Assembly: GCF_900182705.1 (NCBI RefSeq)
Contig: NZ_FXTP01000004.1
Span: forward strand, 62,001-126,000
Source: Gracilimonas mengyeensis
Lineage (GTDB): Bacteria; Bacteroidota; Rhodothermia; Balneolales; Balneolaceae
Reading direction: 5' to 3'
Length of the DNA: 64,000 nucleotides
Shown here: piece by piece, positions 12,055-31,735 of the stretch
Layout of the letters: every line of letters starts with the position of its first letter
Numbering within the stretch: position 1 is the stretch's first letter
Translations under genes and position numbers: made by a program
The notes under the pieces: model-generated
What the model was told of the DNA's origin: nothing
Seen by the model: only the letters and a program-made list of their open reading frames with translations
The model's database searches: none

Positions 12055-12615
12055 TTATGTTGATTGCTCTTTCTTCTCTGCGTATCTAAATAATAATGCG
12101 GCTGTAGTAAACAGAAAGATAAACATACCATTCACTCCAAAAATCTCCAGAACTGAACTACTCGGCACCGATTGCATATTAGTGAGCAAAGCGGCTACCA
12201 AAAGTATTACATGTGCAAAAGACATCGCAATAAGTACGAACATCATCCCATATGCTTTAAAGCGGGTAAAAAGTGATCCCAGAATGCCAATTCCAATCAC
12301 CCCAAAATACAACAGATTAAAAGCATGGTCCTCCGGACCGATAATTCCAACAGCAAGATTGGCCCAAATCAGGAAAAGTGAAGAGCCCAGAGCAAGGCCC
12401 ATAGCAAACCGATACATTTTGTTTTCGGATGTTTTGGTGGCAAGAATAAAGGTGAGTCCTGTGCCAAATAGAAGGGAACCGGCAATAACAAAATCACTGA
12501 GCGTCCATACAACCTCGTTGGTAAATTGCATGGCTACCAAAGGAATGAGTAGTACAATGCCTGTGATGAAGGCGAGATAGATAACAGGTCGGGATATGCT
12601 TTGAGATGTATTCAT
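12055..12615 (-). CDS. Hypothetical multi-pass membrane protein
   Basis: Unrecognised. The 186 residues form about six membrane helices; a conserved-looking NLAVGIIGPEDHAFN loop lies between helices three and four. It is the last gene of a co-directional membrane-protein cluster and has its own copy of the paired AAAGTACTTT operator upstream, so it is probably controlled by the winged-helix protein encoded at 12887-13186. Confidence 0.7.
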   Translation of the reverse strand: MNTSQSISRPVIYLAFITGIVLLIPLVAMQFTNEVVWTLSDFVIAGSLLFGTGLTFILATKTSENKMYRFAMGLALGSSLFLIWANLAVGIIGPEDHAFNLLYFGVIGIGILGSLFTRFKAYGMMFVLIAMSFAHVILLVAALLTNMQSVPSSSVLEIFGVNGMFIFLFTTAALLFRYAEKKEQST

Positions 12616-12645: not shown

Positions 12646-12669
12646 AAAGTACTTTTAATTGCAAAGTAG
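12646..12669. promoter_or_regulatory. Paired GTAC operator, copy 1
   Basis: AAAGTACTTTT (GTAC core at 12649) is followed 17 bases later by AAAGTAG (core at 12666). The same 17-base core spacing occurs at 13801/13818 before the other transcription unit of this cluster. The site lies about 30 bases before the ATG at 12615. Confidence 0.6.
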
Positions 12670-12689
12670 TTAGGTAAATTTTTTTGGGA

Positions 12690-12884
12690 TTATTCTATTT
12701 CAGAACGGTGGCTTCTTTTACGGAAGTACATCCAGCAGATACCGGTCAGTATCAATAGCAAAGGAAGGGCACCCGGTTCGCTTTCGGTTAATATCATATA
12801 GGTCAAAAGTAAAAAGCCTGTTAAAGTGGTTAAGAATGCTGGTACCCAGCGTATATTTCTTCTCAAAGAGGTCAGATATTTCAT
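12690..12884 (-). CDS. Small two-helix membrane protein
   Basis: A 64-residue protein with two hydrophobic segments (VPAFLTTLTGFLLLTYMIL and GALPLLLILTGICWMYF) and basic ends. Its start lies two bases after the stop of the winged-helix regulator, so it is translationally coupled to it. Unrecognised; probably an accessory of the cluster's membrane protein. Confidence 0.65.
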   Translation of the reverse strand: MKYLTSLRRNIRWVPAFLTTLTGFLLLTYMILTESEPGALPLLLILTGICWMYFRKRSHRSEIE

Positions 12885-12886
12885 GT

Positions 12887-13186
12887 TTATTTTCGTGCGT
12901 TAATGATGGTTTCGAGTACTTTTAAGTGATCATCGAAGGCTTTTTTGCCTTCTTTAGTCATGGAGTATTTGGTGTTGGGCTTGTTGTCGATAAAGGATTT
13001 CTCTACTTCGATAAACCCTTCCTTTTCCAGCTTTTTAATGTGGGTAGCCAGGTTGCCGTCGGTTACATCCAGGAATTCCTTCAGGGCGGTAAAATCAAGG
13101 GTATCGTTTACCGCCAGGGCCGACATAATGCCTAGCCTGACCCGGCTTTCAAATGCTTTATGTAAATCATCAAAGGATACTTTCAT
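12887..13186 (-). CDS. Winged-helix transcriptional regulator (HTH_34 / MarR-ArsR-like)
   Basis: A 99-residue single-domain regulator. The family hallmarks are DLHKAFESRVRLGIMSAL at the start, the recognition region EFLDVTDGNLATHIKKLEKEG, and the wing IDNKPNTKYSMTKEGKKAF. Members of this family usually sit in operons with small multi-pass membrane proteins, as here. Upstream and downstream spacings are 3 and 2 bases, so it is one operon unit. The two paired GTAC sites bordering the cluster are the natural candidates for its binding sites. Confidence 0.88.
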   Translation of the reverse strand: MKVSFDDLHKAFESRVRLGIMSALAVNDTLDFTALKEFLDVTDGNLATHIKKLEKEGFIEVEKSFIDNKPNTKYSMTKEGKKAFDDHLKVLETIINARK

Positions 13187-13189
13187 GCG

Positions 13190-13795
13190 TCACCGCTCGT
13201 ATCTGAAATGCATATAAATTCCATACAAAACATGAACTACTCCGAATCCAATAGCCCAAAACAGAAGTCCATATCCAACAAAAAATGCGTTCAACAATCC
13301 AAGCAACATCTGAACAAAACCCATCACTCTCACTTCTTTGATCGTAAAGTGTCCTGCATTGTATAATGCCAATCCATAAAAGAGGAGGGTGAGTGGGGCA
13401 GCGAGTCCGATTAGTCCATTTGATATCAGGATGAAGATTAAAATTCCGCCCGCAAAAAGAGGTACGGCCATACTAACCAATAGCCGTCTTGATGTAGCAT
13501 TCCAGGCGCTTTCTTCTCTTTTATTGGCTTTTCTACGGGAATCCAGAAGGGCGCTGACTAAGGCAAGCCCCAACACACCTGCAGCTGTCAAAAGTACATT
13601 TATCAAATTAGAGTATGAATAAAAGAATTCATCCGGTCGAAACTTCAAAAGGCTATGAGCAATCCACGCCCCAACCAAAGCGTACGTTCCGGCCAATATC
13701 CCAGCCCAGCCGGAGAGCGACAAAAATTTTGACGAGCGTTCCATCATGGAACGGATCTCGGCGATGTCTTTTAGATAATCCTGTTCTTCTTTCAT
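13190..13795 (-). CDS. Hypothetical four-helix membrane protein of the regulator operon
   Basis: A 201-residue protein with a charged N-terminus (KDIAEIRSMMERSSKF) and four to five membrane helices. The layout is typical of the uncharacterised protein paired with HTH_34 regulators in Bacteroidota. It is the first gene of the operon. The paired operator directly touches its start codon, so binding there would block initiation. Function unknown. Confidence 0.72.
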   Translation of the reverse strand: MKEEQDYLKDIAEIRSMMERSSKFLSLSGWAGILAGTYALVGAWIAHSLLKFRPDEFFYSYSNLINVLLTAAGVLGLALVSALLDSRRKANKREESAWNATSRRLLVSMAVPLFAGGILIFILISNGLIGLAAPLTLLFYGLALYNAGHFTIKEVRVMGFVQMLLGLLNAFFVGYGLLFWAIGFGVVHVLYGIYMHFRYER

Positions 13796-13824
13796 AAAAA
13801 GTACTTTTTATTTAAAAGTACATT
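13796..13824. promoter_or_regulatory. Paired GTAC operator, copy 2
   Basis: AAAAAGTACTTTTT (13796-13809) is a perfect 14-bp palindrome adjoining the start codon. AAAAGTACATT follows, with its GTAC core 17 bases from the first, the same spacing as copy 1. Confidence 0.65.
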
Positions 13825-13855
13825 GAGAAAATGATTAATACAACATGTCTAAAAA

Positions 13856-30496: not shown

Positions 30497-31735
30497 ATGT
30501 TTAAGAAGATCATATTATTCCTACATCGCTGGCTCGGGTTGATCTCCGGGCTGGTGGTGTTGGTTCTAAGCATCAGCGGCGCACTTTTTGTATTCCAAAA
30601 GGAGTTTACGCATTGGCTTCGTAAGGATGTGATGTACGTAGAGCAAACCCAGCGGCAGCGCCTTTCGATGGAAGAGATGTATGCCCGTACAGCTGATGCT
30701 TTGGAAGTTCCCGCTCTTTACTATGGATTGGTAACCTATAAGGATGAAAATCAGGCTTGGAGCGCCTTTAGCTACATTCCTAACCCTGAACCTTCCTGGA
30801 CATACTTTGGGGCTATCAAAGAATATAAGACGGCTTATGTAAATCCTTATACCGGGGAGACCCAGGCCGTTATTGACGAGGAAAAGGATTTTTTCCAGAT
30901 CATGAAAGGGATACACTGGAGCCTGTTGTTGTCCACGCCTATTGGGCAGCCAATTGTAGTCTGGAGTACGGTAATTTTTATCGTACTGCTGATATCAGGT
31001 TTGGTTTTATGGTGGCCGAAGAAATGGAATAAAGCGGGCAAACAAAAGAGTTTTAAAGTGAAATGGGGCTCTACCTGGAGGCGCGTTAATTACGACTTGC
31101 ACAATGTGGTAGGCTTCTATGCCTTACTGCTTGCCTTGATTGTTGGTTTTACCGGTTTATACTGGGCCTTTCCATTTGCCAAAAAGACACTGCATTTCCT
31201 GGGAACCGGGGAGTTTAAATTGCCGGATACCCAAACCACAAAGGTGCAATCGACACCGCCGGCAGCTCCCCGGGATGCAGCAGAGAGTCCGTTGGAAGTA
31301 GCTTACAAAAATGGATGGGAAGAATTCCCAGATGCATACAGCATCGCTTTCATCACCCCAAGGGATTCGGCAGGAACCATCAACGCCATTGTTCGCGGTT
31401 CCGGAAAAACCTACTACGAGCGCAGCGAAATGAAATTTGATCAATACACAGGTGAAGTGTTACAGATCGATGCGTATGAAGATAAAAACGCCGGCGAGAA
31501 GCTGCTGGCCATGAACTACGATATCCATGTGGGTGCCATAGGTGGCATTCCCGGAAAAATTCTGGCTCTGCTAATTTGTATTGTTTCGGGAAGCTTGCCC
31601 ATAACAGGTTTCATCATTTGGTTTGATAAGAAACGGAGGGGTAAAAGACAGAAATCCAGGCCATCTTTTTATAAAGGAATAAGTGGTAACGGCCGCAAGA
31701 AAAAGTGCAAACCATCTGAGTTAGCAGAAGCCTAA
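30497..31735 (+). CDS. PepSY-associated membrane protein (possible ferric-siderophore reductase)
   Basis: A 412-residue PepSY_TM protein with four membrane helices (about 13-34, 153-175, 205-226 and 352-375). Histidines lie at helix ends (LHRWLGL, GIHWSLL, YDLHNVVGF, YDIHVGAIGG), as expected of heme-binding family members such as FoxB/PiuB that reduce siderophore-bound iron. The large periplasmic loop (about 228-350) carries the PepSY fold with YYERSEMKFDQYTGEVLQ. The C-terminal tail is short and very basic. It ends the receptor-DUF4198-PepSY cluster. The role in iron release is inferred from family and context. Confidence 0.85.
   Translation: MFKKIILFLHRWLGLISGLVVLVLSISGALFVFQKEFTHWLRKDVMYVEQTQRQRLSMEEMYARTADALEVPALYYGLVTYKDENQAWSAFSYIPNPEPSWTYFGAIKEYKTAYVNPYTGETQAVIDEEKDFFQIMKGIHWSLLLSTPIGQPIVVWSTVIFIVLLISGLVLWWPKKWNKAGKQKSFKVKWGSTWRRVNYDLHNVVGFYALLLALIVGFTGLYWAFPFAKKTLHFLGTGEFKLPDTQTTKVQSTPPAAPRDAAESPLEVAYKNGWEEFPDAYSIAFITPRDSAGTINAIVRGSGKTYYERSEMKFDQYTGEVLQIDAYEDKNAGEKLLAMNYDIHVGAIGGIPGKILALLICIVSGSLPITGFIIWFDKKRRGKRQKSRPSFYKGISGNGRKKKCKPSELAEA

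Follow-up and report, generated by a model that had tools for sequence, protein, structure and literature searches.

A putative phylum-wide operator of an HTH_34 autoregulator at two membrane-protein transcription units of Gracilimonas mengyeensis

Introduction

The closest described counterpart of the regulator considered here is PH1061 of Pyrococcus horikoshii (PDB 1UB9), an HTH_34/MarR-like protein of the same fold and size, which is the top match of the regulator both in sequence (E 5e-8) and in structure (TM 0.84). PH1061 is archaeal whereas the present regulator is bacterial, and the likeness was established at the level of the protein. Members of MarR proper have about 140 residues, long flanking dimer helices, and a ligand pocket; the regulator contains a match to the MarR domain (PF01047, 30.1 bits against a cut-off of 24.6) that is confined to residues 18-64, but with 99 residues and a short N-terminal part it has neither the size nor the architecture of MarR proper. 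Small PadR-family proteins usually repress their own genes through a palindrome lying over the promoter, and the PadR operator is of the ATGT-N-ACAT type. The small winged helices of PadR-family Rv3488 (5ZHC/5ZI8) and of B. subtilis PadR (5X11) have a fold similar to that of the regulator, but its score for the PadR family (PF03551, 21.1 bits) falls below the cut-off of 27, and the operator proposed for it, ACTTTG-N5-CAAAGT, differs from the PadR type.

Two other known systems bear on the locus. The protein CreD is controlled in Proteobacteria by CreBC, and the likeness is that creD follows the second operator in some relatives; CreBC is a two-component system, however, whereas the linked regulator here is a one-domain winged helix and this genome (97.5% complete) has no match to PF06123 (creD). 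The sigma-A promoter of Bacteroidota consists of the boxes TTG and TAnnTTTG, and in Flavobacterium the latter sits at -12 to -5, as given in an excerpt of PMC9723704. Site A of the present locus lies on such a promoter, whereas site B seldom fits it and has an A/T tract.

Among top-ranked titles and the openings of abstracts, no description of an HTH_34 regulon or of its operator was found, and two papers containing the letters CAAAGTACTTT concern human genes, judging by their titles; as far as these titles and openings show, the regulator family is so far without a described target. The window analysed here is a stretch of 64,000 nucleotides of Gracilimonas mengyeensis, for which a preliminary description had proposed paired AAAGTACTTT operators, bound by two cooperating dimers of the regulator. 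Sequence comparison points instead to a well-supported regulon of a kind already known, with an element of a different shape, in all likelihood an operator that an autoregulating HTH_34 protein uses across the phylum.

Materials and methods

Forty-nine relative loci were gathered by protein similarity alone and together with the window gave 50 sequences; they come from Balneolaceae and many other Bacteroidota (e.g., Gracilimonas, Gillisia, Parapedobacter, Spirosoma, Saprospiraceae, Bacteroidales, and one Ignavibacteriales bin). Sites were scored on the 17 fixed letters of the consensus ACTTTG-N5-CAAAGTACTTT, which is read on the minus strand in the window. Counts given over 47 B sites include two relatives (L056 and L057) whose B scores of 12 are at chance level. 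For the scan of the phylum, 296 genomes were searched for the consensus with at most one mismatch and for a reversed-pattern control; 155 of them have a regulator match at E 1e-15, and in 91 of these genomes the match is close (E < 1e-35). Distances between motif and regulator were counted for 150 of the 218 matches, minus 6 in weak-regulator genomes, using the 91 close regulators and those of G140, G263, and G066. The AF2 model of the regulator was built from 23 of the 50 regulators (relatives and window), and that of the membrane protein from 44 of 48 sequences (47 relatives and the window).

The locus and its proteins

The operon encodes, in order, a 201-residue membrane protein, the 99-residue regulator, and a 64-residue protein, and is followed by a separate gene for a 186-residue membrane protein (Table 1). 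Operator A stands directly before the start codon of the membrane protein co-transcribed with the regulator, and operator B lies 5' of the second membrane-protein gene. Open reading frames of 64-67 residues occupy the place of the third operon gene in several Balneolaceae relatives. A Pfam search assigned no family to the 201-, 64-, or 186-residue proteins, and a search of NCBIfam with the membrane proteins of the cluster gave nothing above cut-off, one match at E 0.04 lying below its own.

Table 1. Features of the HTH_34 locus in the window.
Feature	Position	Strand	Basis or remark
Operator A (putative)	13798..13819	-	half-site 1 ACTTTT 13819-13814, N5, half-site 2 AAAAGT 13808-13803, half-site 3 ACTTT 13802-13798
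Operator B (putative)	12646..12667	-	half-site 1 ACTTTG 12667-12662, N5, half-site 2 AAAAGT 12656-12651, half-site 3 ACTTT 12650-12646
-7-box position of sigma-A promoter, overlapping half-site 1	13814..13821	-	GTACTTTT here; family majority TAACTTTG
-33 TTG	13841..13843	-	lies upstream of the -7 position by 19 bases
A/T tract AAAAAAATTTA, preceding operator B at a constant distance	12675..12685	-	TTT at fixed place
201-aa membrane protein, operon gene 1	13190..13795	-	ORF reading and predicted structure
99-aa HTH_34 winged-helix regulator, operon gene 2	12887..13186	-	PF13601 and AF2 model
64-aa protein, operon gene 3	12690..12884	-	ORF; membrane protein by eye
186-aa membrane protein of family F1, gene after operator B	12055..12615	-	ORF and family grouping
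Third AGTACTTTTAA word, outside the system	12913..12922	-	coding coincidence; GTAC in 2/49 relatives

The regulator matches HTH_34 (PF13601) over positions 1-80 of 80 with 100.7 bits against a cut-off of 27 and is the sole protein of the genome above this cut-off, three further matches falling below it. Its AF2 model (pLDDT 89.7) has helices at residues 15-27, 32-39, and 43-55, wing strands at 59-76, and a helix at 78-97, i.e., a winged-helix fold with an additional C-terminal helix, as the structural match to 1UB9 also indicates. This C-terminal helix (78-97) looks, in the model, fit for dimer contact. The recognition helix is formed by residues 43-55. In 23 regulators compared, D43, G44, L46, and A47 show no variation and N45, H49, and K51 almost none; a recognition helix this constant fits a constant operator. 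A chain of 99 residues leaves no room for a ligand domain. In two other loci (L098:1042-2022 and L099:1408-2388), weak relatives of the regulator form the end of 326-residue proteins whose N-terminal half looks PAS-like by eye.

The gene of the 201-residue membrane protein is found in 90 of the 91 close-regulator genomes (G107 has no match) and within 1.5 kb of the regulator in 89 of these 90, G289 having it farther away. The model of this protein (pLDDT 87.6, with about 60 over the first 30 residues) contains an N-terminal helix, well conserved in sequence but modelled with low confidence, followed by six long helices that are taken as membrane-spanning, and a PDB fold search with it returned no match at E 0.001. 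No fusion of membrane protein and regulator was found in the loci read: a candidate in L065 turned out, on translation, to be an accidental frame, and the long open frames at other regulators in those loci look accidental by eye, with the exception of L098 and L099.

Shape of the conserved element

Alignment with the 49 relatives resolves the core element into an inverted repeat, ACTTTG-N5-CAAAGT, followed by a third half, ACTTT. The majority sequence of site A, aligned on the operator, is TTG-N19/20-TAACTTTGnAATnCAAAGTACTTTnnATG, in which the invariant or nearly invariant columns are ACTTTG, five bases, and (C/A)AAAGTACTTT. A site A of at least 15 of the 17 letters occurs in the expected stretch in 49 of the 50 sequences (0/980 in first-order Markov controls), the exception being a relative whose sequence stops at a contig edge (L057). 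Site B, after the regulator gene, reaches the same score in 37/50 (controls 0/1000), and no B site was found in L052, L053, and L062. In the window, operator A agrees with the family consensus at 15 of 17 letters and operator B at 16 of 17, with one and no mismatches, respectively, in the genome pattern scan. The half-sites of operator A (ACTTTT/AAAAGT) carry a change that is matched on both sides, giving a T-A pair found in 3/49 A sites.

At least 11 of the 12 letters of the inverted repeat are present in 44/49 A sites and 45/47 B sites. Its five outer base pairs are complementary in 92-100% of A sites and the inner pair in 47%; the corresponding values for B sites are 85-98% and 79%. The third half is carried by every site A examined and is missing from some B sites. 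Half-sites 1 and 2 are centred 11 bp apart, which is one helical turn, and such a separation is the usual geometry for a single winged-helix dimer. The alignment yields an inverted repeat whose half-sites are spaced by roughly one helical turn and which sits on the promoter driving the regulator itself, the arrangement of a single inverted-repeat operator.

Position on the promoter

As a family, site A coincides with a sigma-A promoter of the Bacteroidota type. The pattern TTG-N17..22-TAnnTTTG is matched strictly in 31 of 49 A sites and has its best fit at that place in 39; TTG itself occurs within the matching 8-base stretch in 42/49, against 2 within a stretch of the same length lying farther upstream. 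The copy in the window has the TTG and a -7 box that matches TAnnTTTG poorly. With TAnnTTTG at -12 to -5, as in the excerpt of PMC9723704, site A would span about -10 to +12. Of the 47 loci in which the first gene could be read, 46 have its start codon 2-6 nt behind the operator (44 of them at 2-4 nt). The end of this gene lies no more than 25 nt from the regulator, with a 4-nt overlap in 26/47.

At site B, the promoter pattern is matched strictly in 1 of 47 loci and has its best fit there in 17. A TTT ending the A/T tract stands at a fixed place in 44/47 B sites against 13/49 A sites. The tract resembles an UP element, and it may be an UP-like element or an aid to a roadblock. An intrinsic terminator was also considered at this place and rejected, the mean hairpin z over the preceding 60 bases being -0.03 and falling below -2 in 6 of 47. 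An A/T tract before operator B is also visible in the loci L096, L102, L110, L113, and L115.

Distribution over the phylum

Across the 296 genomes, the pattern gave 218 matches in 109 genomes and the reversed control 41 in 37. The motif is present in 89 of the 91 close-regulator genomes (control 20/91) and in 1 of the 141 genomes without a regulator match at 1e-15 (Fisher p 6e-61, a value that ignores kinship among genomes); counted per genus, the regulator occurs in 70/139 and the motif in 57/139. The two close-regulator genomes missed by the scan (G159 and G211) nonetheless have A sites of 15/17. The sole motif-bearing genome among the 141 is G112. Of the 144 listed matches in the 94 genomes with a placed regulator, 105 stand no farther than 2.5 kb from it, and 39 (in 25 genomes) lie beyond that distance.

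Mid-range regulators (E 1.5e-29 to 3.9e-20) are accompanied by the motif in 13 of 33 genomes (control 0/33; 20/33 without a match) and weaker regulators in 6 of 31. Fifteen mid-range or weak-regulator loci, of 19 read, were scored, and 12 of them have a site of at least 14/17 around the regulator, these scores being without a control set; the best site of L103 lies over 1.2 kb upstream of the regulator, and those of L105, L098, and L099 reach 11, 12, and 13 of 17, respectively. In L113 and L115 the operator shows the coordinated change ACTTTA...TAAAGT. The regulator matches of G025 and G170 hold one in-frame TAG stop each and are possibly decayed copies, or the stop is close to an end.

For a regulator family spread over Bacteroidota (155/296 genomes at E 1e-15), the exact pattern thus offers a putative operator that can be searched for directly. 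The preliminary description had announced a searchable regulon motif, and one does exist, as the 89/91 against 1/141 genomes attest; the form given for it, GTAC-N13-GTAC, recovers one operator of the window, overlooks the other, and is replaced by the corrected motif.

Target genes

In the genome of G. mengyeensis, a scan at no more than one mismatch returns the two sites of the window only. Five other matches have three mismatches each, one of them being site A on the other strand, and the reversed control likewise gives five. The predicted regulon in this genome is accordingly sites A and B.

In the 50 loci, a few recurrent families supply genes that follow site B, with members among the next four open reading frames, namely F1 (24 loci, mostly ~190 aa), F2 (19 loci, mostly ~414 aa), F3 (12 loci, ~110 aa), and F4 (8 loci). 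The last is CreD, PF06123 being found in all three members tested, and of the 36 genomes that have both CreD and a close regulator, 27 place the two no more than 5 kb apart. Twenty-two of the 39 distant matches were read in 20 stretches, and of 20 nearby proteins scanned, six have a Pfam family above cut-off: DUF4153, DUF2809 (two), Peptidase_C92, VIT domain, and OmdA. In relatives, CreD and other envelope proteins appear to stand under the operator. Loss of CreD damages envelope integrity in Stenotrophomonas, where the creD deletion was reported in the excerpted text of PMC4689548, and on this ground an envelope role of the regulon is a fair guess.

In genomes of the genus g44, a distant operator precedes a gene for a 223-224-residue protein (L077 1420, 3407; L078 2739, 1979; L090 3009), and the one product tested, that of L077, is a Peptidase_C92 (YiiX-like amidase); in L077 and L078 a second site follows ~2.0 and 0.8 kb further on. 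Similarly, a distant operator precedes an 832-residue protein at L079:1699-4197, which has a VIT domain, and at L091:1277-3775.

Proposed mechanism and alternative readings

The comparison of loci and genomes establishes the element, its linkage to the regulator, its specificity, and its position on the promoter; from these we infer that the regulator binds the operator, the sign of regulation, the geometry of the dimer, and signalling at the membrane. Since the motif is present in nearly all close-regulator genomes and in a single genome lacking the regulator, the HTH_34 regulator is very probably the protein that binds the element, and it is most likely an autorepressor. With good confidence we take sites A and B to be operators of this regulator, each repeat occupied by one dimer, and the operon to be autorepressed, with the membrane partner as the most likely origin of the signal. 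One dimer would sit on ACTTTG-N5-CAAAGT with its recognition helices one DNA turn apart, and because site A overlies the -7 box together with the start of transcription, the bound regulator would block RNA polymerase and thereby repress its own operon. Site B would play the same role for the next gene, which encodes a membrane protein, and the third half, ACTTT, could add affinity or provide a second, overlapping register. With a regulator that has no ligand domain and a membrane neighbour that is nearly constant, the 201-residue protein is the best candidate for giving the signal, which it might do, for example, by tethering the regulator to the membrane; it is from gene pairing alone that we infer this signalling.

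A broader version of this scheme extends over the phylum and is offered tentatively, as something that could be so but probably is not. The six-helix protein would sense the state of the envelope and hold or free the one-domain repressor, so that a set of swappable membrane proteins (CreD, DUF4153-like, F1, and F3 families) is released. Site B would then represent a second type of control, either a promoter of unusual type or a roadblock against transcription that reads through from the operon.

It is unlikely that the regulator is an activator, or that it acts in a mixed manner as a repressor at A and an activator or roadblock at B. The argument for it comes from site B, which is mostly without TTG/TA boxes and yet has a conserved A/T tract at a fixed distance, a feature with which a simple repressor site could dispense. 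Proteins bound at about -10 to +12 normally block polymerase, and this is the span of site A, which counts against activation there.

Cooperation of two dimers on two AAAGTACTTT palindromes 17 bp apart, the model of the preliminary description, has become very improbable. Exact copies of AAAGTACTTT do stand at 12646-12655 and 13798-13807, the latter ending 2 nt short of the start codon at 13795, which bears out the remark that one palindrome touches the start codon. The distal partners fare differently. At site A the pair of GTAC cores at 13801 and 13818 is present (13815-13824 reads AAAGTACATT), whereas the pair claimed for site B at 12649 and 12666 has GTAG as its second core, 12663-12672 reading AAAGTAGTTA. 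Among relatives, the distal GTAC is not conserved, being found in 5/49 A and 4/47 B sites against 44/49 and 25/47 for the proximal one, and the pairs of the distal palindrome match in just 4-51% of A sites, far below the 92-100% of the five outer pairs of the ACTTTG/CAAAGT repeat. Within A sites, the proximal AAAGTACTTT is preserved no less well than that repeat, with complementary pairs in 90-100% of them, so that it is the B sites that decide for the repeat: there the same pairs are complementary in 55-85%, and six relatives (L020, L022, L029, L032, L037, and L041) keep the inverted repeat at site B without the third half. Moreover, the halves of AAAGTACTTT are centred just 5 bp apart, too close for a single winged-helix dimer. 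The 17-base spacing corresponds, in the inverted-repeat reading, to the distance between half-site 1 (ACTTTG) and half-site 3 (ACTTT), which are direct repeats. The statement that both transcription units carry an operator tied to the HTH_34 regulator holds for sites A and B, as far as sequence can tell.

A reading of the element as chiefly a promoter motif (TAnnTTTG with start-site sequence) rather than an operator can almost be dismissed. ACTTTG does overlap the -7 consensus in site A, but the CAAAGTACTTT part falls outside known promoter boxes, the motif follows the regulator (89/91 against 1/141) and not the phylum, and most B sites retain it in the absence of such boxes (1/47 strict).

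Other GTAC-containing words

Taken alone, AAAGTACTTT occurs at the level of chance: with up to two mismatches, 43 copies are found across the window against 44.7 expected, and the exact word has 15 sites genome-wide against 16 for the reversed control, so that there is no enrichment. The third word noted earlier inside the regulator gene, at 12915, belongs to a stretch (12913-12922) that reads CGAGTACTTT within the regulator codons for H-L-K-V-L; with GTAC at that place in so few relatives, it is explained as a coincidence of coding and drops out of the system. The spaced pair GTAC-N13-GTAC is found twice in the window (13801 and 30966), where 0.21 is expected. The copy at 30966-30986 is without AAA/TTT flanks and lies off the operator consensus.
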